Positions 1-22,573 of a stretch of 35,751 nt of DNA are shown here, piece by piece. The translations under genes were made by a program, and so were the position numbers. Source of the DNA: Actinomycetota bacterium (GTDB taxonomy: Bacteria > Actinomycetota > Acidimicrobiia > Acidimicrobiales > CADCTF01). Each line of letters begins with the position of its first letter. Position 1 is the first letter of the stretch. Location of the stretch: contig JAHWJU010000005.1 in NCBI GenBank assembly GCA_019348255.1, forward strand, positions 20,042-55,792, in the 5' to 3' direction. The notes under the pieces are model-generated. The model had not been told where the DNA came from. It saw nothing but the letters and a program-made list of their open reading frames with translations, and made no database searches.

Positions 1-2837
1 TCGTAACGGCGCTGGGCCTTGGTGGCCGCCGCCGGGTCCCCCGAACGCCGGTGGGCCGAGATCAAGAGCCGCCACAGGTCGTCCCGGTAGGCGTCGATGC
101 GCAGGCCCCTGTCGGCTTCCGCTGCCGCCGCCTTGGGCTGGCCGGCGGCCAGCAGCATCGCGGCGCGGGCGTGGGAGGCGTCCGCCGCCTGCAGGCGGCA
201 CCGGTCTCGCTCCGCCAGCACCCACTCGGCGGCGCCCTCGTCGGCGAGAAGCTCCCCCCGGTACAGGTCGAGGGCGCACCCGAGGTGGTTCCCGGCTGCC
301 TCGTCGTCGCCGGCGGAGCGGGCACTGCGGGCGACAGCCAGATGCTCGTCGAAGAGAGCGAGGTCGAGGGTGCCGGGGCCGAGCGCAAGGCGGTACGTGT
401 CGCCTTCGCGAACCACCACCGCAGCCGCGCCCCGCGCCACCCCCGGCTCCAGCAGCTGGCGCAGGGATGAGACTGCCACCTGGAGATTGCGGGTGCCGAC
501 GCGGGCGTCGCCCTCGGCCGGCCACAGGGAGTCGACGAGGTGGTCGCGGTGCACGGGGCGGCCGGCGTGCAGGGCGAGCAGGCGCAGGAGCGACCGCACG
601 CGGGGCTTGATGGACGACAGGTCGACCAGCTCGCCGTCGAGCTGCACCACCGTCGGGCCGAAGCACCACACGGCCAGTCCGTGGGCCCGGGGGGGCCTCC
701 GGGGCCCGCTCCCATCGCGTCTCTCCCCGCCGGTAGCCGGGGCAGCAAAGCACAGACCCAGCTCCGCCAGCCCGCCCCGGGCCCTGGCGGCGGGCTCGCT
801 GCCGGCGCCGTGGTCGACAATGGCCGAGGCCAGCCCTGCCAGCGCCACCGGTCCCGGGACGGCGGCCTGACGGGAGACGGAGGCGGCCCGACCGACCGCG
901 ACCGTCGCGCCGGGGTCACCGGTGCGAACCATGGACAAGCCGGCCCCGGCCCGGGCCCACGCCTCCAGCACCGAGGCGCCCAGCGCCTGGAACCCCTCGG
1001 CCGCCTCGAGCAACTGGTGGCCGACATCTTCGCCCTTGCCCAGCCGACCCAGCCCCACCAGCAGCTGAGCCAGCGGTCGACCCCACTCGTCGTCCTTTCC
1101 CAACGCCGCACCCGCGGCCTGGTGGGCCGAGCCTGCTTCCGCCGCCACGACGGCCTTCACGAGCGCCGCCAGCCAGGGCACATCCGCACGCTCCGCCGCC
1201 TCCATCAGTGCCGGCCCGTCGGCCCCGGCCGGACGCCCCGCCAGGAGGCGGGCCACCAAAGCGGCGACCCGGGCTCCCAGGGCGAGCACTGCCGTGGCGT
1301 CGGCGCGGCTGGCGACCGCCTCCAGGCGCGTGGCTGCCGTCTCCACGTGTCCGGCGAGAAGGATGGCGACGGCCGAGGCGAGGGCGCCGCCGGCACCGGT
1401 CAGCCGACCTGCCTCCCGCTGGGTCAGCCCGGCGGGGTCGCGCACGACCGCCCGGCGCAGGAAGGACGTCCAGTCTCCCGAGGCCGGCCCCGGCTCCTCG
1501 AACCACGCCGCCACCGTCTGGCGTTCACGGCGGGCCATCGCTGCCGGCTGGCCGTGCCCCGACGCCGCCTCGGCCCGGTCGTAGGACTCGATGGCGGCCC
1601 GCCACCGCCCGAGAGCGACGTTGCGCCGTGCCGAGGCCAGGAGCAGCCAGGGGTCCTGGTCGAGCAGCGCGGCCGGCAGCGCCTCGATCCACTCGCCGGG
1701 CTTGTCGATCACCTGCTCGCCCCGGCCACCGAGCAGGCCGGTGGCCGCATCCCAGTCCCCGGCCCGGCAGTAGGCGCGCAGAGCCTCGGGCAGATGGCCG
1801 TGACCCTCGAGCAGCTGCCCGGCGCGGCGGTAGCGGGCACTGGCCTCCAGCTCGCCCACCGTCTCCAGGAGCACCGCCTCCAGGTGCGACCGCAGGACCT
1901 CGTGATAGCGGTAGTCCCCCTCGTCGTCGAGGGCCGCGGTGAAGATCTGCCGCTGCTCGAGCTCGGCCAGCAGGGCCGAGCTGCTGGTGGCTCCGGTGAC
2001 GGCGTCGCAGAGAGCGGGGTTCAGCCGGCCCAGGACGCAGGTCTGCAGGAGGAAGTCCCGCACGTGGAGCGGCAGCTCGTCGAGGACGTTGCGGGCCAGG
2101 TACTCCCGCACCAGGCGCCACCGCATGCCCAGCTCGTTGAGAACCCGGCGCCGCTCGGCCGGGCCCTTGCCCCTCGTGGCCAGGTGGAACAGCTGCAACG
2201 CGGCCGCCCACCCCTCCGTGCGCCTGGCCAGCTCGGCCTGCTCGTCGGGGGCCAGCGGTTCGCCGTAGAAGTCGTGGAACAGCCGCTCCACCTCCCAGGA
2301 GCGGAAGCGGAGCTCGTCGGGCCCCATCTCGATCACCTGGTTCGACACCCGCAGGCGCGACAGGTTGAACCCCGGCGCCCGGCGGGTTCCCGCCACCATG
2401 GCGATGCCCGGCGGCAGGTGCTCCAGGAGGCGCTCCAGGGTGGCTTCGGCCTCGGTGCCCCACACGGCGTGCAGGTCGTCGACCGCTATCAGCCCCCGGT
2501 CGCCCTCCCAGCAGTCGAGCGCCTGGATGACGTCGTCCACATCGGTCCAGCCGCCGGCGAGGCCGAAGCCGGCGACGAGGCCACGCTCGAGGTGGGCTAC
2601 GGCGGCGGCGGCCGATGCGTCCGCCGGCTCCGCTCGGTACCAGGCCACCGGATGACCGGCGCCGGCCGCGAACTGGGCCAGGAGGGTGGTCTTGCCCGAC
2701 CCCGCCGGCGCCACCACGAGAGCCAGCCGGTGTTGCCAGACGGTGTCCAGCAGGTCATGCAAGCGCTCGCGGCGGAAGGCATTGACCCGTGGCGCCCTCA
2801 CCTTCGCGCCCAGAACCGGCTTGCCCGCTGCTCCCAT
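1..2837 (-). CDS. MalT-type ATPase / C-terminal OmpR-like HTH + BTAD (SARP/AfsR-type) transcriptional regulator, partial (C-terminus beyond window start)
   Basis: Reading the minus strand from ATG at 2837 gives one open frame to base 1: MGAAGKPVLGAKVRAPRVNAFRRERLHDLLD...LALVVAPAGSGKTTLLAQFA (Walker A)...LIAVDDLHAV (Walker B-like)...VREYLARNVLDELPLHVRDFLLQTCVL (MalT-like)...VWCFGPTVVQLDGELVDLSSIKPRVRSLLRLLALHAGRPVHRDHLVDSLWP (trans_reg_C)...BTAD TPR-like region. Missing from the ORF track because it has no stop inside the window. Confidence 0.85.
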   Translation of the reverse strand, partial: MGAAGKPVLGAKVRAPRVNAFRRERLHDLLDTVWQHRLALVVAPAGSGKTTLLAQFAAGAGHPVAWYRAEPADASAAAAVAHLERGLVAGFGLAGGWTDVDDVIQALDCWEGDRGLIAVDDLHAVWGTEAEATLERLLEHLPPGIAMVAGTRRAPGFNLSRLRVSNQVIEMGPDELRFRSWEVERLFHDFYGEPLAPDEQAELARRTEGWAAALQLFHLATRGKGPAERRRVLNELGMRWRLVREYLARNVLDELPLHVRDFLLQTCVLGRLNPALCDAVTGATSSSALLAELEQRQIFTAALDDEGDYRYHEVLRSHLEAVLLETVGELEASARYRRAGQLLEGHGHLPEALRAYCRAGDWDAATGLLGGRGEQVIDKPGEWIEALPAALLDQDPWLLLASARRNVALGRWRAAIESYDRAEAASGHGQPAAMARRERQTVAAWFEEPGPASGDWTSFLRRAVVRDPAGLTQREAGRLTGAGGALASAVAILLAGHVETAATRLEAVASRADATAVLALGARVAALVARLLAGRPAGADGPALMEAAERADVPWLAALVKAVVAAEAGSAHQAAGAALGKDDEWGRPLAQLLVGLGRLGKGEDVGHQLLEAAEGFQALGASVLEAWARAGAGLSMVRTGDPGATVAVGRAASVSRQAAVPGPVALAGLASAIVDHGAGSEPAARARGGLAELGLCFAAPATGGERRDGSGPRRPPRAHGLAVWCFGPTVVQLDGELVDLSSIKPRVRSLLRLLALHAGRPVHRDHLVDSLWPAEGDARVGTRNLQVAVSSLRQLLEPGVARGAAAVVVREGDTYRLALGPGTLDLALFDEHLAVARSARSAGDDEAAGNHLGCALDLYRGELLADEGAAEWVLAERDRCRLQAADASHARAAMLLAAGQPKAAAAEADRGLRIDAYRDDLWRLLISAHRRSGDPAAATKAQRRY

Positions 2838-2974
2838 TGACCGCCCGCCGCGTCGCCAAAGAAGATCTTGCCCCAAAGGGTACGCCATGTTGCCCGCCGG
2901 CGCACTGCGCATTCGGGGGACGACCCGGCACGGCAACGGTGCTCGCGCTCCCTCGTCCGGGGTAGCCTCGGCCC

Positions 2975-3124
2975 GTGGGCCGCGGCAGCATCCCTCCCTC
3001 GAGGCGTCGGCCCTGGTGGCAACGGCTCCTGCGGATGGCCACCGTCGGGGTGGGCGTGGTCGCCGTCATTGCCTGGCGCGAGCGCAAGTTTGCCCAGAAC
3101 CAGCAGCGCTACGGCCTGCCTTAG
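2975..3124 (+). CDS. Small basic single-TM hypothetical protein (49 aa)
   Basis: GTG ORF MGRGSIPPSRRRPWWQRLLRMATVGVGVVAVIAWRERKFAQNQQRYGLP; TAGCCT hexamer 6 nt before GTG; sits between the divergent regulator and convergent bcp. Confidence 0.45.
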   Translation: MGRGSIPPSRRRPWWQRLLRMATVGVGVVAVIAWRERKFAQNQQRYGLP

Positions 3125-3155
3125 CTCCCGCGTCCGGTCGTGGGGGTGAGCTCCG

Positions 3156-3626
3156 TCAGCCGGAGCGGCCGAGGGCGTCGAGGAGCAGTGGAGCCGTGTC
3201 CTTGGGTGAGATCTTGTACCGGGCCTCGGCGATCTTGCCGCTGGCGTCGACGAAGAAGGCCGAGCGGATGATCCCCATGTACTTCTTGCCGTACATCGAG
3301 CGCTCCCCCCAGACGTCGTAGGCCTCGGCCACGGAGTGGTCCTCGTCGGCCAGGAGAGGGAAGCCGAGGCCGTACTTCTGGTCGAACTTGGCCTGTTTCG
3401 CCGGCGGGTCGGGGCTGATGCCGACGACCACGGTGCCTCCCAGGTCGGGGGCGATGTCCCGCAAGCCGCAGGCCTGGGCGGTACAGCCTGGAGTGTCGGC
3501 CTTCGGGTAGAAGTAGACCAGGTGTGCGGCCTTGCGCTGCTTCAGCGACTTCGACAGCGAGAAGGGCTCGCCGTTCTGGTCGAGCAGGGTGAAGTCGGGG
3601 GCCTTGTCACCAGCCTTGAGCGACAT
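3156..3626 (-). CDS. bcp: Thioredoxin-dependent thiol peroxidase / peroxiredoxin (BCP-type AhpC/TSA)
   Basis: MSLKAGDKAPDFTLLDQNGEPFSL...VYFYPKADTPGCTAQACGLRD: canonical Prx motif with peroxidatic Cys. Confidence 0.93.
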   Translation of the reverse strand: MSLKAGDKAPDFTLLDQNGEPFSLSKSLKQRKAAHLVYFYPKADTPGCTAQACGLRDIAPDLGGTVVVGISPDPPAKQAKFDQKYGLGFPLLADEDHSVAEAYDVWGERSMYGKKYMGIIRSAFFVDASGKIAEARYKISPKDTAPLLLDALGRSG

Positions 3627-3632
3627 GACCGG

Positions 3633-3638
3633 AACGTA
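3633..3638 (-). promoter_or_regulatory. -10-like TACGTT, leaderless promoter candidate for bcp
   Basis: TACGTT-ccggtc-ATG (bcp start 3626). Confidence 0.5.
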
Positions 3639-3656
3639 GCACCCGCCGCTCGCTTG

Positions 3657-3671
3657 TGCTACAAGTAGCGC
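3657..3671 (+). promoter_or_regulatory. vapBC promoter/operator candidate: TG-N-TACAAG with overlapping inverted repeats
   Basis: CTTGT-GCT-ACAAG (3653-3665) and GCTAC-AA-GTAGC (3658-3669); TACAAG (3660-3665) ends 6 nt before the vapB ATG (3672). Confidence 0.5.
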
Positions 3672-3947
3672 ATGACCCGGGTGGGCGTGCGCGAGTTGCG
3701 GCAGCGTGCCAGTGAACTGCTGCGCCTCGTCGAACAGGGCGAGACGATCGAAGTAACGGATCGCGGGCGGCCGGTAGCCCTCCTCACGCCAGTTCCAGCG
3801 GGCAGCGCGCTCGAGCGCATGCGCGCCGCGGGCGAGATCGAGGCGGCTTCGGGCGACATCAACGACCTTCCACCACCGCTGGTGTTGCCGGCCGGATCCG
3901 AGCTTCCGTCGCAGGTGTTGGCTCGCCTCCGCCGCGACGAGCGCTGA
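3672..3947 (+). CDS. Type II TA antitoxin, Phd/YefM-like VapB
   Basis: MTRVGVRELRQRASELLRLVEQGETIEVTDRGRPVALLTPV is the Phd/YefM N-terminal fold; stop overlaps the toxin start by 1 nt (TGATG). Confidence 0.9.
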   Translation: MTRVGVRELRQRASELLRLVEQGETIEVTDRGRPVALLTPVPAGSALERMRAAGEIEAASGDINDLPPPLVLPAGSELPSQVLARLRRDER

Positions 3948-4339
3948 TGGCCGTCACGTACCTGGATTCTTCGGCGATCGTGAAGCTCGCCGTGGCCGAA
4001 CCGGAGTCGGCGGCCCTCCGCCGCCACCTGCGGCGCAGACGACCACTCGTCTCCAGCGCGCTTGCTCGTGCGGAGGTGCTGCGCGCTCTCCTACCGGCGG
4101 GAACGTCAGCGGTCGCGGTGGGTCGGACTGTCCTGGCCGGCATCGAGCTGGCTCGGATCAACGATCGCGTGCTGACTGATGCCGCAACGCTGGAACCAGC
4201 CGAGCTGCGGACCCTCGATGCGATCCACCTCGCGACGGCGCAGCGCTTGGGCTCGGAGCTCACCCAGCTCGTCACGTACGACGATCGGATGATCGCCGCC
4301 GCCGCTCGGCTCGGCATCCGCACCGCAGCTCCGGCGTAG
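3947..4339 (+). CDS. PIN-domain toxin, VapC-type ribonuclease
   Basis: MAVTYLDSSAIVKLAVAEPES...EVLRALL...LRTLDAIHLATAQRL...LVTYDDRM: PIN acidic residues present; coupled to the upstream antitoxin. Confidence 0.92.
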   Translation: MAVTYLDSSAIVKLAVAEPESAALRRHLRRRRPLVSSALARAEVLRALLPAGTSAVAVGRTVLAGIELARINDRVLTDAATLEPAELRTLDAIHLATAQRLGSELTQLVTYDDRMIAAAARLGIRTAAPA

Positions 4340-4380
4340 GCACCCGGTGAGCGGAACCCGGTGCGATGAAGGGCCGGTGG

Positions 4381-5376
4381 TCAGCGGCTGTCGCGTCGGC
4401 GCCAGAAGAGGAACAGGATCACCAGCAACGCCAGCAGCAGGAGGAGTGCCACCAGCACGGCCACCCGGCCGCCGGTCGTGTCCGTGACGCGGTTGGCCTC
4501 GACCGGTGCAGCCGTGTCGCCAGGCCGATCCGGGAACGTGACGGTGGCGCTGGCTCTTTGTGCCTCCTGACCGGAGCGGAGAGTGACGGTGGCGACCCAC
4601 GGCCCCCGGGGCAACTTGGGATCGAGACGGATCGGGACCTGCCCGCACTGCCCGGGCGCCAGGGTCGGGATGGTCTCGCTCTTGAACGGTCCGGCCGAGA
4701 CGCCGCCGGGACCTTCGCCCAGGGCCAGCTCGCCGGACAGGTCGACGGCCCGGCGGCCGTCGTTGCAGGTGCGGATGTCGATGCCCGGCCGGCCGTCTCG
4801 GTCCAGGGACGGCGTGAACGATTCGAGCTTGAAGCTGGTTGGGGGTTCGTCGCCGCCGCCTACGGCGAGGTAGACGCGAATACCGACCCGGTTGCTCACC
4901 GCGGCCCCGCCGCCCTGAGGTGGCACGCCGGGTAGCTCGGCCCACACGACCCCGTAGTACTCCCCGGCACGGGTGCCCGACGGCACCGCCACCTTCACCT
5001 GGGCCTTCGTCCGGGCCCCGGCCGCCAGGTTGGCGGTGGGCGGCGTGACCGTCATCCACGAGCTCAGGGCGTTCTCACGGCCCCGCTCCTCGGGGATGAA
5101 CGCACCGTCTTGCACCCGGGCGGCGCCGGCGTAGAGGTCGGCCTTGATCGGCCGGCCGGTGCCGTTGGACACCTCGAAGGTGCGGGTGAAGGTGGTGCCG
5201 GGGTGCACGAAGTCGACGATGTAGCTGCGGGCCCTCGGGTCGTCGGATCGGGAGGCCGGTGCCTCGAGCAGGCGGATGCCGAGGCCGGGGTCAGGACGTT
5301 GGGCGGACGCGGCCGTCGCCCCCACCAAGGTGAGGGCGACGGCCAGGACGGAGGGCACGAGGCGCGAGCGGGACAC
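4381..5376 (-). CDS. DUF916-like (WxL-interacting-type) secreted protein with C-terminal TM anchor
   Basis: Signal peptide MSRSRLVPSVLAVALTLVGATAASA; VHPGTTFTRTFEVSNGTGRPIKADLYAGAA...SGTRAGEYYGVVWAELPG resembles DUF916; C-terminal TM and basic tail VAVLVALLLLLALLVILFLFWRRRDSR. Confidence 0.7.
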   Translation of the reverse strand: MSRSRLVPSVLAVALTLVGATAASAQRPDPGLGIRLLEAPASRSDDPRARSYIVDFVHPGTTFTRTFEVSNGTGRPIKADLYAGAARVQDGAFIPEERGRENALSSWMTVTPPTANLAAGARTKAQVKVAVPSGTRAGEYYGVVWAELPGVPPQGGGAAVSNRVGIRVYLAVGGGDEPPTSFKLESFTPSLDRDGRPGIDIRTCNDGRRAVDLSGELALGEGPGGVSAGPFKSETIPTLAPGQCGQVPIRLDPKLPRGPWVATVTLRSGQEAQRASATVTFPDRPGDTAAPVEANRVTDTTGGRVAVLVALLLLLALLVILFLFWRRRDSR

Positions 5377-5393
5377 GCCTCGATTCTTCCTGC

Positions 5394-5936
5394 TCAGAGG
5401 ACGGACTGGGTGATGGTGCCGACGTAGTCGCCGGCGATCACGTTCACGGGGACGACTCCGGTCACGGTGGCCCCATAGGTGTAGGTGCCGCCGCCGGCGC
5501 CGACGAGCGCTGTGGCGACCACGAAGTCGGCACCCATGCTCCCGCCCGCCCCGGCGCCCACACCGGTGAGGCTCCCGTTGGTGGTGGCCACGGTACCGGT
5601 GGCCCAGGCGAAGCCGGCCTTGGGCATGGTGTAGGCAACGGTGCTGGCGGTGGCCGGCTTGACGAAGTCGCTGGAAGAGCCGGTGACGGTCCAGCCGAGG
5701 AGCGAACCGCGGGTGTCGGCGACGGACGTGGTCCCCACGTTGACGGTGACCGTCGAGCCGGGAGCGGCAGAAGCGGAACCCGCGGCCGTGGCCGGGGCGT
5801 CGACGCTCAGGCTGCCCCCCGTGAGGGTGATCGTGGCCGAGGTGGTGTGGTCGCTGGCCGACGCCGGAGCTACGAGAGCCGCACCGGTGATGGCGAGTCC
5901 GCCGAGTGCTGCAGCGATGGTCTTGGTGAGCTTCAT
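5394..5936 (-). CDS. Secreted WxL-domain-like surface protein
   Basis: Signal peptide MKLTKTIAAALGGLAITGAALVAPASA; VADTRGSLLGWTVTGSSSDF and C-terminal PVNVIAGDYVGTITQSVL resemble actinobacterial WxL-like proteins; 17 nt upstream of the DUF916-like gene; SD-like GGAGAAGGGA before ATG. Confidence 0.65.
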   Translation of the reverse strand: MKLTKTIAAALGGLAITGAALVAPASASDHTTSATITLTGGSLSVDAPATAAGSASAAPGSTVTVNVGTTSVADTRGSLLGWTVTGSSSDFVKPATASTVAYTMPKAGFAWATGTVATTNGSLTGVGAGAGGSMGADFVVATALVGAGGGTYTYGATVTGVVPVNVIAGDYVGTITQSVL

Positions 5937-6105
5937 TTCTGTCCCTTCTCCAGGGCCTGTGCCCGTGTTGTTGATCTGTTGTTGCTTTGTGCCTTCCCTT
6001 CGGTCCCCGAAGCTGGCGGGCGCATGGTCCGGGGTCGCTATTTCGGCGGGGAGAATGTGGCTAGTCAGGTGCAGCTATGACAACGGACGGCGGTACCGTG
6101 CCGCC

Positions 6106-7701
6106 GTGAACCCAACGTGGGAGCCGGGCGACCTGGCCATCGGCGCCTTCAGCGACGAGGGGCCGTGGCTGGTCGAGCCCGAAACGCTGACCTGGCGCTC
6201 CGGCCTCGATGGCCTGCGGCTGCGGACGCGGGCCGAGGTACCGACGCTCACCCGCCGGCGCCGGCTACCTCCCGGCGCTCGGGTGGTGCGAACGGCGGCG
6301 GTGCTGGGCCCGGCGCTGGCGGGCTGGTACCTCCGCGACCGGCGGCGGGGCCGCCACGTCTCTCGTGCCGGGCTGTCGCGGCGGCTGCGCGAGGCGTTCG
6401 AGCGCCTCGGGCCCACCTACATCAAGCTGGGCCAGATCCTGTCGTCGGGAGAGGGCATCTTCCCGGACGAGTTGGTCTCGGAGTTCAGGCTGCTGCGGGA
6501 CCGGGTGCCGGCCGAACCCTTCGCCGCCGTGCGCCGGACCGTGGAGGCCGAACTGGGTCGGTCACTGGAAGCCGTCTTCTCCTCCTTCGAGCCGACCCCG
6601 GTGGCCGCCGCCTCCATCGCCCAGGTGCACGCCGCCCGTCTCGTGACCGGCGAGGAGGTGGTGGTGAAGGTCCAGCGCCCGGAGGTCCGCTCCCTGGTCC
6701 GGCGGGACCTCGCGGCGATGAGCTGGATGGCGCCGGTTCTGGTGGGTCGGATCCCGGTCAGCGCGCTCGCCAACCCGCCGGCGCTGGTGGAGCTCTTCGC
6801 GGAGACGATCGTGGAGGAGCTCGACTTCCGCCTGGAGGCCGAGAACATGCTGGACGTGGCCCGGGTGCTGGCCGACACCGGGCAGCGGGCCATGGTCGTG
6901 CCCCGCCCCCACCCCAACCTCGTGACCCGCCGGGTGCTGGTGATGGAGCGCCTCGACGGCTTCTCCTTCGACGACGTGGCCGGCATGCGGGCCGCCGGTA
7001 TCGACACCTCTGCGGTGGTGCGGGCCGGCATGGTGTCGTTCCTCGAGGGCGCCATCCTCTACGGGGTCTTCCACGGCGACCTCCACGGCGGCAACCTCTT
7101 CGTGCGGCCCGACGGCCGCGTGGCGCTGCTCGACTACGGCATCACCGGGCGCCTGGACCAGACCCGCCGCCAAGCCTTCCTCCGCCTGCTCATCGGAGGC
7201 ACGGTCAACGACCTGACGATGCAGCTCGAGGCCATGCGGGACCTGGGCGCCCTGCCGCCGGATGTCGACCTGGGCCGGCTCAGCTCGGACCTGGGCTTCG
7301 ACCGGCCCCCACAGGACCCGACGCAGATGGCGCCCGAGGAGCTCATGCGGGAGATCCGGGACTTCACCAAAGCCCTGCTCGGCTACGGCGCGAGGATGCC
7401 CAAGGAGCTGATGCTGTTCGTGAAGAACATGATCTTCTGCTCGGCGGCCATCTCCACCATGGCGCCGGACGTGGACCTCTTCGGCGAGGTCACCTACATC
7501 GCCACGTACTTCGCGACGCGCCACGGCGACCGCATCGCGAGCGACGTCGGCATCGACCCTCGCACCCAGCAGGTCGACCTGGACGGCCTGCGGGCCTCAC
7601 TCGGTATCGCCGACGACCGTCCCGCCATAACGATGCGCGAGCTGGAGGAGCGCCGTCGCATCATCCGCGAGCGCATGTACGGTCACCGCCGGCGTCGCTG
7701 A
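6106..7701 (+). CDS. ABC1/UbiB (AarF) family atypical kinase
   Basis: GPTYIKLGQILSSGEGIFPDELVSEFRLLRDRVP...AAASIAQVHAARL...VVVKVQRP...GVFHGDLHGGNLFV...LLDYGITGRL: UbiB KxGQ and HGDxHxGN motifs. GTG at 6106 preferred over the ORF-track start at 5641, which would read through the antisense of the WxL-like gene. Confidence 0.92.
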   Translation: MNPTWEPGDLAIGAFSDEGPWLVEPETLTWRSGLDGLRLRTRAEVPTLTRRRRLPPGARVVRTAAVLGPALAGWYLRDRRRGRHVSRAGLSRRLREAFERLGPTYIKLGQILSSGEGIFPDELVSEFRLLRDRVPAEPFAAVRRTVEAELGRSLEAVFSSFEPTPVAAASIAQVHAARLVTGEEVVVKVQRPEVRSLVRRDLAAMSWMAPVLVGRIPVSALANPPALVELFAETIVEELDFRLEAENMLDVARVLADTGQRAMVVPRPHPNLVTRRVLVMERLDGFSFDDVAGMRAAGIDTSAVVRAGMVSFLEGAILYGVFHGDLHGGNLFVRPDGRVALLDYGITGRLDQTRRQAFLRLLIGGTVNDLTMQLEAMRDLGALPPDVDLGRLSSDLGFDRPPQDPTQMAPEELMREIRDFTKALLGYGARMPKELMLFVKNMIFCSAAISTMAPDVDLFGEVTYIATYFATRHGDRIASDVGIDPRTQQVDLDGLRASLGIADDRPAITMRELEERRRIIRERMYGHRRRR

Positions 7702-18047: not shown

Positions 18048-18736
18048 GCGGCCACCGCCTCCTCCACCGTGAAGGCTCCCTCGTAGATCGCCTTGCCCAC
18101 GATGGCGCCGGCGGCACCGGCATCGGCTAGAGCCCGCAGGTCGTCCAGCGATCCGATTCCTCCGGAGGCGATGACAGGCACGCTCGTCGCCTCCATCACC
18201 CGGGCCAGCCCGATCAGGTCGGGCCCCTGCATCGTGGCGTCGAGCCCGATGTTGGTGACGACGAAGGCGGCGGCACCGGCGAACTCCGGCCATGCGACGG
18301 CTTCGAGCACGCCGATGCCGGAGGCGGCTTCCCACCCCCTCGTGCGAAGCTGGCCGTCGCGGTGGTCGAGGCCGATGGCCACGCCTCCGGGATGGCCGGC
18401 GATCAGCGCCTCCGTCTGCTTGCGGTCGGCGACGGCCAGCGTGCCCAGCACCACCCGCGAGACGCCGGCGTGGAGCAGCGAGGCATCCCGCACCCCCCCA
18501 CCGGTCTGAACGGGGACCGGCACCGCAGCGGTGATGGCCTCTACCACCGACCGGTTGCTGCCCTGTCCCCTGGAGGCGTCGAGGTCGACGACGTGGACCC
18601 ACGGTGCTCCGGCTCCGGCGAATGCCCGCGCCCGGGCCACGGGGTCGGAGTCATAGACGGTCTCGCGGTCGAAGTCACCCTGGTACAGGCGCACGCAGCG
18701 CCCGGCCCGGAGGTCGATGGCCGGGTACAGGTCCAC
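18035..18736 (-). CDS. hisA: Phosphoribosylformimino-5-aminoimidazole carboxamide ribotide isomerase (HisA-type)
   Basis: [68 protein letters not shown]...QTGGGVRD...[16 protein letters not shown]. Confidence 0.94.
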
Positions 18737-19344
18737 TACGCGGGGTAGGCGATCCGGACGAAGTTGGCCAGCAGGGCCAGCCCCACCGGGCCCGACTTCT
18801 CGGGGTGGAACTGGGTGGCCCAGAGCTTCGGGGCGGCCACCACCGCCGCCTGCGGGCCCCCGTAGTCGCAGACGGCAACGAGCCCCGGCGAGGGCGGGGC
18901 GACGTAGGAGTGGACGAAGTAGACCCACGGGTCGGGCCCGAGATCTGCCACCAGCGGGTCGTCGGGTCGGCGCAGCTCCAGGCGGTTCCACTGCATCTGA
19001 GGGCGCTTGACGGTGTCGGGCAACCTCTGGACCCGGCCGGCCAGGATGCCGAGGCCGCTGGCCTCGGGGTCCTCCTCGGAGCCCTCGTAGAGCAGCTGCA
19101 TGCCGACGCAGATGCCGAGGAACGGCGTGCCTGCCTCGACCGCCGCGTACGCGGCCTGGTCGAGGCCGGACCGGCGCAGCGCCGCCATGCACGCGCCGAA
19201 TGCGCCGACGCCGGGCAGCACCACCCCGGCCGCGCCCCTCGCTTCGGCCGCCGTGGTCACCAGCCGGGCGTCGGCGCCCACGCGCTCCAGGGCCTTCTGG
19301 GCCGAGCGGAGGTTGCCGATGCCGTAGTCGAGGACCGCCAGCAC
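18736..19344 (-). CDS. hisH: Imidazole glycerol phosphate synthase glutamine amidotransferase subunit
   Basis: MLAVLDYGIGNLRSAQKALERVGADARLVT...VLPGVGAFGACM...FLGICVGMQLLYEGSEED...ATQFHPEKSGPVGLALLANFV. Confidence 0.97.
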   Translation of the reverse strand: MLAVLDYGIGNLRSAQKALERVGADARLVTTAAEARGAAGVVLPGVGAFGACMAALRRSGLDQAAYAAVEAGTPFLGICVGMQLLYEGSEEDPEASGLGILAGRVQRLPDTVKRPQMQWNRLELRRPDDPLVADLGPDPWVYFVHSYVAPPSPGLVAVCDYGGPQAAVVAAPKLWATQFHPEKSGPVGLALLANFVRIAYPA

Positions 19345-19361
19345 CGCTCAGCGGGCCGGGC

Positions 19362-19961
19362 TCAAAGCGAGCCCTTGGTCGACGGCACGGCCGTACCCTC
19401 GACTGCGATGGCGTCGCGGAGGCAGCGAGCCACGCCCTTGAAGACCGCTTCGAGGATGTGATGGGTGTTGCGGCCACTACGAAGGCGGACGTGCAACGTG
19501 ATGCCGGCCGCGGTGGCGAAGGACTGCCAGAAGTGCTCGCCGAGCTGTGGATCGAACGGGGGTGTCCCCAGGGCGAGCGGCTCGAGCGGCCCCGGGAACA
19601 CGACCTCGTAGACCACGAACGGCCGGCCCGAGAGGTCGAGCGCCACCTCCACCAGAGCCTCGTCGAGGGGCAGGAGGATGGAGGCGAAGCGGCGGACACC
19701 GGCCTTGTCGCCCAGCGCCTCCCGCACCGCCTCGCCCAAGACGATGGCCACGTCCTCCACCGTGTGGTGGGTGTCGACGCACAGGTCGCCCTGGGCCTTG
19801 ACGTCCACGTCGATGCCCCCGTGGCGGCCGAGCTGGGACAACATGTGGTCGAAGAAGGGAAGCCCCGTGGAGACGTCGGCCTTACCGTCGCCGTCGAGGT
19901 CGACGGTGACGTCTATGGCCGTCTCGGCCGTCCGCCGGGACCGGGTGCTGACCCTGGTCAT
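19362..19961 (-). CDS. hisB: Imidazoleglycerol-phosphate dehydratase
   Basis: GLPFFDHMLSQLGRHGGIDVDVKAQGDLCVDTHHTVEDVAIVLGEA...HHILEAVFKGVARCLRDA. Confidence 0.97.
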   Translation of the reverse strand: MTRVSTRSRRTAETAIDVTVDLDGDGKADVSTGLPFFDHMLSQLGRHGGIDVDVKAQGDLCVDTHHTVEDVAIVLGEAVREALGDKAGVRRFASILLPLDEALVEVALDLSGRPFVVYEVVFPGPLEPLALGTPPFDPQLGEHFWQSFATAAGITLHVRLRSGRNTHHILEAVFKGVARCLRDAIAVEGTAVPSTKGSL

Positions 19962-21022
19962 GTCAGCACCTCGGCCAAGGCACCCAGGAACCGCTCGTTC
20001 TCCTCCGCCGTTCCCACCGTCACCCGAAGGCAGTCAGCCAGGCGGGGCCAGCTCCCGCAGTTGCGGACCAGCACCGATCGATCCACCAGGCCCTGCCACA
20101 CCTGGTCCCCGGAGCGCCCGACCGGTCGGAAGAGCACGAAGTTGGCGTCGCTGGGCCAGGCCTCCACGCCGAGACGGGCGAGGCCGGCGACCATCCGCTG
20201 CCGCTGCGCCACGACGGCCGCCACCCGTGACTCCATCTCGCCCTGGTGGCACAGCGCCAGCCGGCCGGCCAACTGCTTGAGGCTGTCCAGGTGGTACGGC
20301 AACGCCCGCTTCTCCACCTCGGACACCACCACCGGCGGGGCGACCATGTAGCCGAGGCGGCAACCGGCCATCGACCAGGTCTTGGAATAGGTGCGGGTCA
20401 CGACGAGCGGGAGCTGCGGGTCTGCCACCAGCAGGTCGAGGGCGTTCCAGGAGGAGAACTCGGCGTAGGCCTCGTCCACCACCACCAGCCCCGGCGCCAG
20501 CCCCAGGACCTCTTCCACCGCCTCGCGGGGCTCCGCCCGCCCCGTCGGGTTGTTGGGCGAGCACACGAAGGTGATCTCCGGCAGCGCGTCGGCCAGTACC
20601 CGCTTTACCTCGGTGAGGTCGAGGAGGAAGTCGGCCGACCGCTCCCCCACCGCCACCCTGGTGGAGGTGAGGCGCCCGATCTGGCCGTGCATGGCGTAGG
20701 TGGGCTCGAACACGGCACAGGAGCGACCGGGCCCGCCGTAGGTGAGCAGGAGCGTCTGGATCACCTCGTTGCTGCCGTTGGCCACGAAGACCTGCTCGGG
20801 AGCGACACCGTGCAGTAGCGCGAGGTCGCGGCGCAACGCGGCCGCCCGGCGGTCCGGGTAGCGGTGGAAGGCGATGGCGGCCACCTCCTCGCGCAGCTCG
20901 CGAACCCACTCAGGTGGCGGCCCCAGCGGCGACTCGTTCGTGTTCAGCCGTACCTCCACCTCCACCTGGGGGGAGTGGTAGCCCTGCAGTCGGCCGAGGT
21001 TGTCGACCGGGTCGGGGATCAC
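19958..21022 (-). CDS. hisC: Histidinol-phosphate aminotransferase
   Basis: VRLNTNESPLGPPPEWV...NGSNEVIQTLLLTYGGPGRSCAVFEPTYAMHG...VCSPNNPTGRAEP...VVDEAYAEFS...TRTYSKTWSMAGCRLGYM. Confidence 0.96.
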   Translation of the reverse strand: MIPDPVDNLGRLQGYHSPQVEVEVRLNTNESPLGPPPEWVRELREEVAAIAFHRYPDRRAAALRRDLALLHGVAPEQVFVANGSNEVIQTLLLTYGGPGRSCAVFEPTYAMHGQIGRLTSTRVAVGERSADFLLDLTEVKRVLADALPEITFVCSPNNPTGRAEPREAVEEVLGLAPGLVVVDEAYAEFSSWNALDLLVADPQLPLVVTRTYSKTWSMAGCRLGYMVAPPVVVSEVEKRALPYHLDSLKQLAGRLALCHQGEMESRVAAVVAQRQRMVAGLARLGVEAWPSDANFVLFRPVGRSGDQVWQGLVDRSVLVRNCGSWPRLADCLRVTVGTAEENERFLGALAEVLT

Positions 21023-22341
21023 GGCGCGGCCGACGCCGCCGTGGGGGCCGGGCGCGCCGCCGGTCCCCGGAGCCGCACCGACTCGGCGTGGGCGGCCAGC
21101 CCCTCGGCCTCGGCGATGGCCGCGATGTGGGGCGACATCCGGGCCAAGGTCCCCTCGTCCACCGACACCACGTGCACGTGCTTCACGAAGTCGTCGACCC
21201 TGAGCGCGCCGGCGAAGCGGGCCGAGCCGTAGGTGGGCAGCACGTGGCTCGGCCCGGCCAGGTAGTCGCCCACGCTGGCGGGCGCGAAGGACCCGGTGAA
21301 CACGGCGCCGGCGTGACGCACGAGCGGCAGGAGCGCCTCAGGGTCGGCAGTCATGATCTCGAGGTGCTCGGGAGCGATCGCGTTGGCCAGGGCGATGGCC
21401 TGCTCCGGTCCGTCGACCAGCGCCGTGTAGGAGTTGCGCTCCAGGTTCGCCACGATCACGTCCCGCCGGGGGGTGGAGGCGACCAGCCGCCCGACCGCGG
21501 CCACGATGCGATCGGCCACCGCTTCGCTCCAGGTGACCAGCCAGGCGAGGCCGTCGGGGCCGTGTTCGACCTGCACGATCAGGTCGATGGCCGCGTAGTC
21601 CGCCGGTGTGGTCTCGTCGGCCACCACCACCACCTCCGACGGCCCCGCGAAGGACGAGGGCACGCCGACCATTCCGCTCACCTCCCGCTTGGCCTGGGAG
21701 ACATAGACGTTGCCCGGGCCCACGATCACGTCGACCGGGCGCATCGACGCGGTGCCGTAGGCCATGGCCCCGATGGCGGCTGGGCCGTTGCAGCCGTACA
21801 CCTCGTCCACGCCGGCGAGAGCGGCGGCAGCCATGATGCCCGGCGCCACCTTTCCGGTGGAACGGTCCGGCGGCGAGCAGAGAACGACCTCCGCGACACC
21901 CGCAACCCGAGCGGGGATGACCGTCATCAGCACCGTCGAGATCAACGGCACCGCGCCACCGGGGACGTACACGCCGGCGCGGTCGACGGGCCGGCGCAGC
22001 TCTCTCACCACCAGCCCCTCACGCTCGTAGCGGGCCTCACCGTGCAACTGCTCGCGGTGGTAAGCGAGCACGTTGGCCTGGGCCGCCTCGAGCGCCTCCC
22101 GCAGTAGCGGGTGCAGCCCCGCCAGCGCCGACTCCAGCTCGGCCGGCGGCACCCGGAGCTGCGCCGGCCGCACCCCGTCGAAGCGCTCCGTCAGGTCCAA
22201 CAGGGCGTCGTCGCCCCGCTCGCGGACCTCGGCCAGCAGCGCCTGCACCTCCGCCACCGGCGGTTCCGTGGCGGCCTGAGGTCTGGGGATGTGGGCCCGC
22301 AGGTCGGTGGTGACGCCCCGGAGGTCGAGTCGGCTGAGCAT
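21019..22341 (-). CDS. hisD: Histidinol dehydrogenase
   Basis: [21 protein letters not shown]...[33 protein letters not shown]...[24 protein letters not shown]...[11 protein letters not shown]...[16 protein letters not shown]. Confidence 0.97.
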
Positions 22342-22387
22342 GGAGGGGTCGATGTTAGGGGCCAAGGTGGGCAATGATCGAGCCGAC

Positions 22388-22573
22388 ATGGATGACCCCC
22401 GCCCGGAGCTCTCCTCCGTCTCCACCGCCCTCGACGAGCTGACCCGGCGCCTGTCGGCGATGGCCGACGCCGCTGCCGGCGGCGACGAGTCGCTGGTCAC
22501 CGAGCTGTTCGAGATCGAGCGCTCGCTCCAGGGCGCCCGGCGGCGGCTGGCCAGGCTCGTCAGCGAGGGCTGA
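22388..22573 (+). CDS. Small predicted helical protein (61 aa)
   Basis: [61 protein letters not shown]; divergent from hisD with a 46-bp intergenic gap. Confidence 0.6.

Follow-up and report, generated by a model that had tools for sequence, protein, structure and literature searches.

A two-gene WxL-like and WxLIP-like locus in an actinobacterium

The window, by which we mean the whole 35,751-nt stretch of actinobacterial DNA analyzed here, carries on its minus strand a small gene with an ATG start, followed after 17 nt (5393-5377) by a larger gene with a GTG start (Table 1). An AGGA-type ribosome-binding sequence precedes the start codon of each, and together they form a bicistronic operon. 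The pair stands alone: the operon contains no large WxL, LPXTG, or adhesin gene, and the whole genome assembly holds one match each for the two proteins. Promoter and terminator scans returned nothing beyond chance expectation. Downstream lies a toxin-antitoxin pair (3672-4339), convergent with the larger gene, and a Bcp/AhpC-TSA family peroxiredoxin gene is present at 3156-3626 on the minus strand. Upstream and divergent is a gene for an ABC1/UbiB-like atypical kinase; its listed start at 5641, which overlaps the small gene in antisense, is probably not the true one. Elsewhere in the window (18736-22500, minus strand) are ORFs that, by sequence inspection only, resemble histidine biosynthesis genes in the order hisH, hisB, hisC, hisD.

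An initial sequence-only reading had described a secreted 180-aa protein with W-x-V and terminal motifs, followed 17 nt later by a DUF916-like protein with a signal peptide, an Ig-like region, a transmembrane segment, and a basic tail, and had called the two a reduced version of the WxL/anchor pairing known from Firmicutes. Both ORFs and all of these features are present, with the Ig-like region resolving into two beta sandwiches, and the locus is indeed reduced to one WxL-like gene and one anchor gene.

Table 1. Positions of the gene pair, its parts, and neighboring features
Feature	Position	Strand	Basis
Gene for small secreted WxL-like protein, 180 aa	5394..5936	-	ORF; HHalign to Bacillota WxL; 55 loci with a homologue upstream of an anchor
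Signal peptide (residues 1-27) of WxL-like protein, cleavage after A-S-A (...APASA)	5856..5936	-	Sequence inspection; low pLDDT at 1-30 in model
First WxL motif, D74-T-R76-G-S-L-L-G-W82-T-V84	5685..5717	-	Alignment of relatives; Asp at W-8, Arg at W-6
C-terminal strand, Y171-V-G-T-I-T-Q-S-V-L180	5397..5426	-	Register of distal motif Y-x3-[LIV]-T-W-x-L, W to Q
Membrane-anchored WxLIP-like (DUF916-DUF3324-like) gene, 331 aa, GTG	4381..5376	-	ORF; HHalign to WxLIP; PDB fold matches
Anchor signal peptide, residues 1-25, ...TAASA	5302..5376	-	Sequence inspection
DDPRARSYIVD strand, residues 45-55	5212..5244	-	Aligns with NQIDKxxxYFDLK strand of WxLIP
Ig-like domain 1, residues 32-172, WxLIP PGBD/DUF916 equivalent	4861..5283	-	AlphaFold model; HHalign 2.3e-6, domain 1 to domain 1
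Conserved hairpin whose loop is flexible, residues 138-172, candidate WxL-inserting strand	4861..4965	-	pLDDT drop at 151-160; role proposed after PMC10599100
Ig-like domain 2, residues 182-279, WxLIP HBD/DUF3324 equivalent	4540..4833	-	AlphaFold model; HHalign 0.003 (weak), to the matching domain only
C-terminal helix, residues 301-330, transmembrane, Arg-rich end	4387..4476	-	AlphaFold model; predicted TM 305-323, then FWRRRDSR
Phd/YefM-type antitoxin	3672-3947	+	Downstream of pair, convergent with anchor gene
PIN-domain toxin	3947-4339	+	Overlaps the antitoxin
ABC1/UbiB-like atypical kinase gene	6100-7701	+	PF03109, E 5e-64; upstream, divergent from WxL-like gene
Large secreted FN3 + C-terminal WxL-like proteins directly upstream of distant WxLIP-like anchors	Loci L136, L138, L139, L140 (G329, G353, G020, G221)

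The small protein retains the D-x-R-G-x4-W form of the first WxL motif (D74, R76, G77, W82), with Asp at W-8 and Arg at W-6 as in PMC9772566 and the D-x-R-G of PMC1534035, although the third position of its W-T-V (residues 82-84) is Val rather than Leu. The distal motif, Y-x3-[LIV]-T-W-x-L-x3-P (PMC5817068), is kept in register, with Trp replaced by Gln, Leu by Val, and the terminal Pro absent. Within the clade of the window protein, the second Trp is replaced by His or Gln; other actinobacterial branches have Leu, Thr, Ile, Val, Phe, or Glu at this position. A regular-expression motif census, which misreads some rows and whose counts are therefore approximate, found no distal Trp among the actinobacterial domains that it could read, and its only two distal W-x-L cases are from Bacillota (L067, L072). 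In an alignment of 16 WxL-like sequences, D74, Y171, T176, and V179 are among the invariant columns, and W82 and G68 are nearly invariant. These patterns suggest that the second WxL Trp, long treated as defining, is dispensable.

Single-sequence searches of Pfam, NCBIfam, and PDB with the window proteins gave weak results, and it was profiles built from relatives that provided the family assignments; neither protein passes its curated Pfam cut-off by itself. The small protein scores 13.8 bits (E 0.057) against Pfam WxL (PF13731), below the gathering cut-off of 25. Five of 16 relatives match that family (best E 1.4e-5). Relatives that exceed the cut-off are L144 (26.5 bits), L145 (26.9), and a Curtobacterium plasmid protein (27.3), which adjoins an anchor gene and carries the RefSeq name 'WxL domain-containing protein'. 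In HHalign, the WxL-like profile matched Bacillota WxL over its full length at E 2.9e-13 (reversed control, 0.21) and at E 3e-10 after removal of signal peptides, while a set of 80 actinobacterial WxL-like domains reached E 2.2e-16; reversed controls gave 0.2-0.4. The WxL-like profile did not match the WxLIP profile, which served as an off-target control. The Bacillota reference profiles were built from genuine WxL genes beside DUF916 genes on plasmids of non-pathogen Bacillota, leaving out L068 (Latilactobacillus), whose WxL gene is frameshifted. The earlier assignment to WxL, made by motif recognition, is thus borne out by the profile comparison and the first motif, but not by the second Trp or the Pfam score.

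The AlphaFold2 model of the anchor (pLDDT 86) consists of two beta-sandwich domains and a C-terminal helix. In a Foldseek search of the PDB, its top three matches were Enterococcus faecium WxLIP chains (9i1y/9i25; E ~1e-11), aligned over both domains; 9i1y is EfmWxLIP1 alone, and 9i25, by its entry title, is WxLIP bound to a long WxL protein. The anchor sequence profile also ranked EfmWxLIP1 (9i1y/9i25) first among PDB entries (E 0.004), and HHalign aligned it with Bacillota WxLIP across both domains at E 1.7e-8. Each domain matched its own counterpart (Table 1), and cross-domain comparisons were at or near background. Conservation among the actinobacterial anchors is highest in the DDPRARSYIVD strand, which aligns with the signature strand of WxLIP (PMC10599100). 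Among 13 anchor relatives, seven match PF06030 at E < 1 (best 4.6e-4), with the Arthrobacter relative at 25.3 bits against a cut-off of 27.3; no PF06030 match was reported for the window anchor, and none of the 13 relatives matched PF11797 (DUF3324) in Pfam. In all 13 anchors compared, 3 to 10 Lys/Arg follow a C-terminal hydrophobic segment. The anchor is DUF916/DUF3324-like, in line with the first proposal of a DUF916-like protein. The proposed structural similarity of both proteins to these families held for the anchor model but not for that of the small protein, which had no solved WxL chain among its top 50 PDB matches. Two candidate folds for the small protein, a Gram-negative adhesin domain (9ifr, E 9e-4, TM 0.38) and GH123 N-terminal domains, were rejected as generic beta sandwiches, and a viral fold library returned generic Ig-like matches only.

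The same fold searches bear on whether the anchor might instead be a chaperone that lends a strand to the small protein, which would then polymerize into a surface fiber or coat as in chaperone-usher pili. The fold matches that follow WxLIP include the chaperones CsuC, CfaA, CupB2, EcpB, DraB, and Caf1M, the weak matches of the small protein include Csu, CfaB, and PapG pilin domains, and several loci described below have two or three small WxL-like genes. However, every chaperone scores below WxLIP, and such matches are expected because both anchor domains are generic Ig-like sandwiches. The anchor also has a transmembrane helix, which chaperones lack, and no usher is expected in a one-membrane cell. 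We consider a chaperone-subunit arrangement improbable, and favor a WxLIP-type partner for the small protein.

We found the pairing to be widely conserved. Among 395 genomes sampled from the class, protein searches identified an anchor relative in 27 and a WxL-like domain in 22; in a phylum-level sample of 397 genomes, the corresponding numbers were 75 and 34. In the class sample, a WxL-like gene lies on the same strand no more than 1 kb upstream of ten of the 11 strongest anchor matches; the remaining match is at a contig edge. Conversely, an anchor is near 24 of the 31 WxL-like matches from the class and 47 of the 56 from the phylum. A contig search added anchor relatives from Nonomuraea, Clavibacter, a Frankiales MAG, and others, every named one belonging to Actinomycetota. 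Where sequence was available, almost every close relative has, immediately upstream of its anchor gene, an ORF for a small secreted protein that aligns end to end with the window protein. In total, we collected 55 non-redundant loci in which a WxL-like ORF lies directly upstream of an anchor, 54 actinobacterial and one from Bacillota, with a range that takes in plasmids of Streptomyces and Arthrobacter as well as Clavibacter and Nonomuraea. Order and orientation are the same as in the window, and homologues are 38-48% (anchor) and about 23-44% (small protein) identical to the window proteins. Across the 55 pairs, the median gap between the profile matches of the partners is 93 nt, and the divergences of the two partners are correlated (Spearman 0.69; 0 of 2,000 permutations), a correlation confounded by shared species history. 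The pairing is far from chance, and both the Firmicutes-like arrangement and its co-conservation among relatives, two points raised by the sequence-only reading, hold across these loci.

These results also address the view that the operon encodes two unrelated surface proteins, an Ala/Gly/Thr-rich secreted beta protein and a NEW3/Ig-like membrane protein, whose WxL motifs are coincidental. Single-sequence Pfam searches are weak or point elsewhere, with an NPCBM_assoc match at 2.1e-4 next to the WxL match at 0.057. Against this stand the profile matches with their reversed and off-target controls, the fold match of the anchor to WxLIP, and co-conservation in 55 loci, which contradict this view and leave coincidence very improbable. 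The window pair belongs to the WxL/WxLIP system of lactobacilli and enterococci, as a divergent branch of it in actinobacteria.

Several loci depart from the simple pair. A second small WxL-like copy is in tandem in G139, G637, G583, and L036, and in L130, L131, and L132 (G080, G084, G213) it is divergent from the pair, ~230-290 nt away, and ends in TVTTSLV or TVTTSIA. More distant anchors are paired with large proteins (roughly 450-660 aa) that have a C-terminal WxL-like domain, preceded by FN3 domains in four of the five scanned with Pfam. As both large and small WxL-like forms occur, the small/large division known from Bacillota recurs in Actinomycetota. One locus (L141, G302:C36, ~2632-7558) has four WxL-like ORFs of 199-226 aa near a single anchor; endings such as TVTLSAVP and TVDIATGP keep the classical C-terminal Pro. 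Pairs are also located on Streptomyces, Arthrobacter, and Curtobacterium plasmids, where genes for MarR-family regulators lie nearby. In one genus, a response-regulator gene adjoins the pair, convergent with the anchor (L133 in G198 and the L006 region in G213).

In E. faecium, WxL proteins bind a transmembrane partner in vitro, and Enterococcus WxL binds peptidoglycan or the cell surface, both according to work cited in PMC5817068. In AlphaFold models of the E. faecium complexes, the WxL sandwich is completed by a strand of the WxLIP hairpin (PMC10599100). By analogy, we propose that the window encodes a minimal WxL-WxLIP surface pair that tethers the membrane to peptidoglycan, a reading to which we assign a probability of about 0.85. 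The small protein would be a single WxL-like beta-sandwich domain and the larger one its WxL-interacting partner, both exported by Sec. The C-terminal helix, with its Arg-rich cytoplasmic tail, would hold the anchor in the bacterium's own membrane while the two Ig-like domains extend into the wall. The first of these (PGBD/DUF916-like) would capture the WxL-like domain by lending a strand, probably from the hairpin at residues 138-172, and the complex would tether membrane to peptidoglycan and display the WxL domain. For strand insertion, peptidoglycan binding, and tethering, we infer the steps from Bacillota.

Descriptions of WxL/WxLIP systems come almost exclusively from gut-associated and pathogenic members of the Lactobacillales and Bacillales, and the systems have been read as host-adhesion devices in which the second Ig domain binds a host protein and the transmembrane helix enters the host membrane (PMC10599100). 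The homology of the anchor to WxLIP would allow the same role here. However, homologues are found in Streptomyces, Arthrobacter (including a tomato-rhizosphere strain), Curtobacterium, Nonomuraea, and MAGs, and many of these relatives look free-living, making insertion into a host membrane unlikely. The window operon also has no adhesin gene. Because the Lys/Arg residues that follow the transmembrane segment in 13 of 13 anchors constitute a positive-inside stop-transfer signal, placement in the bacterium's own membrane is favored, and with it a membrane-to-wall tether over host-membrane entry. We therefore regard a host-adhesion complex as very improbable. A minimal pair survives in many actinobacteria, which are probably not gut-associated. 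Relatives come in small and large forms, in some cases on plasmids, and Streptomyces and Arthrobacter are potential simple, non-pathogenic model hosts for studying what the pair does. More speculatively, Actinomycetota may harbor a large, old branch of WxL/WxLIP in which a single-Trp WxL domain, completed by a strand from the anchor, forms with it a membrane-to-wall tether or coat that needs no third protein and is unrelated to host adhesion, such that wall tethering rather than virulence would be ancestral; this broader scenario we hold to be rather doubtful.

The locus had been put forward as a little-described surface system. Consistent with this, full-text literature searches found no paper on WxL/WxLIP pairs in Actinomycetota, with an earlier notice possible in the supplementary distribution table of PMC10599100; a 2025 paper (PMC12537917) mentions that DUF916 genes lie close to those of an actinobacterial metalloprotein family. 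On the other hand, part of the family is already recognized by automatic annotation: RefSeq names the anchors 'DUF916 domain-containing', 'peptidase', or 'hypothetical', and the partner 'hypothetical' in all but the Curtobacterium case.

Compared with known systems, the small protein most resembles the small WxL proteins (CscB/WxL1; PF13731), sharing a signal peptide and a single WxL domain, a gene beside a WxLIP gene, the D-x-R-G-x4-W motif, the C-terminal Y-x3-[LIV]-T strand, and a full-length profile match. It differs in that the second Trp is replaced, by His or Gln in this clade, in that the first motif is W-x-V or W-x-A, and in that the window protein lacks a C-terminal Pro and a Pro-rich linker and falls below the Pfam cut-off. 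The anchor resembles WxLIP/CscA (PF06030 + PF11797; 9i1y, 9i25) in its signal peptide, two tandem Ig-like domains, and C-terminal transmembrane helix, and its 331 aa lie within the published WxLIP range of 320-380. Unlike WxLIP/CscA, it has DDPRARSYIVD in place of NQIDKxxxYFDLK, an Arg-rich C-terminal tail, and a DUF3324 domain recognizable only by structure or a weak profile. Like the csc clusters of Lactobacillus plantarum (cscABCD, PMC1534035) and enterococcal WxL loci, the operon has co-directional WxL and DUF916 anchor genes, but it lacks the large WxL (CscC) and LPXTG (CscD) genes. A WxL cluster as defined in PMC10599100 comprises one WxLIP and at least two WxL genes, whereas the window has one WxL-like gene and one anchor gene. 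Two-gene versions also occur in Bacillota, in Lactiplantibacillus pPF and Pontibacillus. Finally, the actinobacterial loci with large WxL-like proteins (L136, L138-L140) share the anchor superfamily and a WxL-like domain encoded directly upstream, but there the domain forms the C-terminus of a 550-660-aa protein, with FN3 domains in the four loci with Pfam detection.
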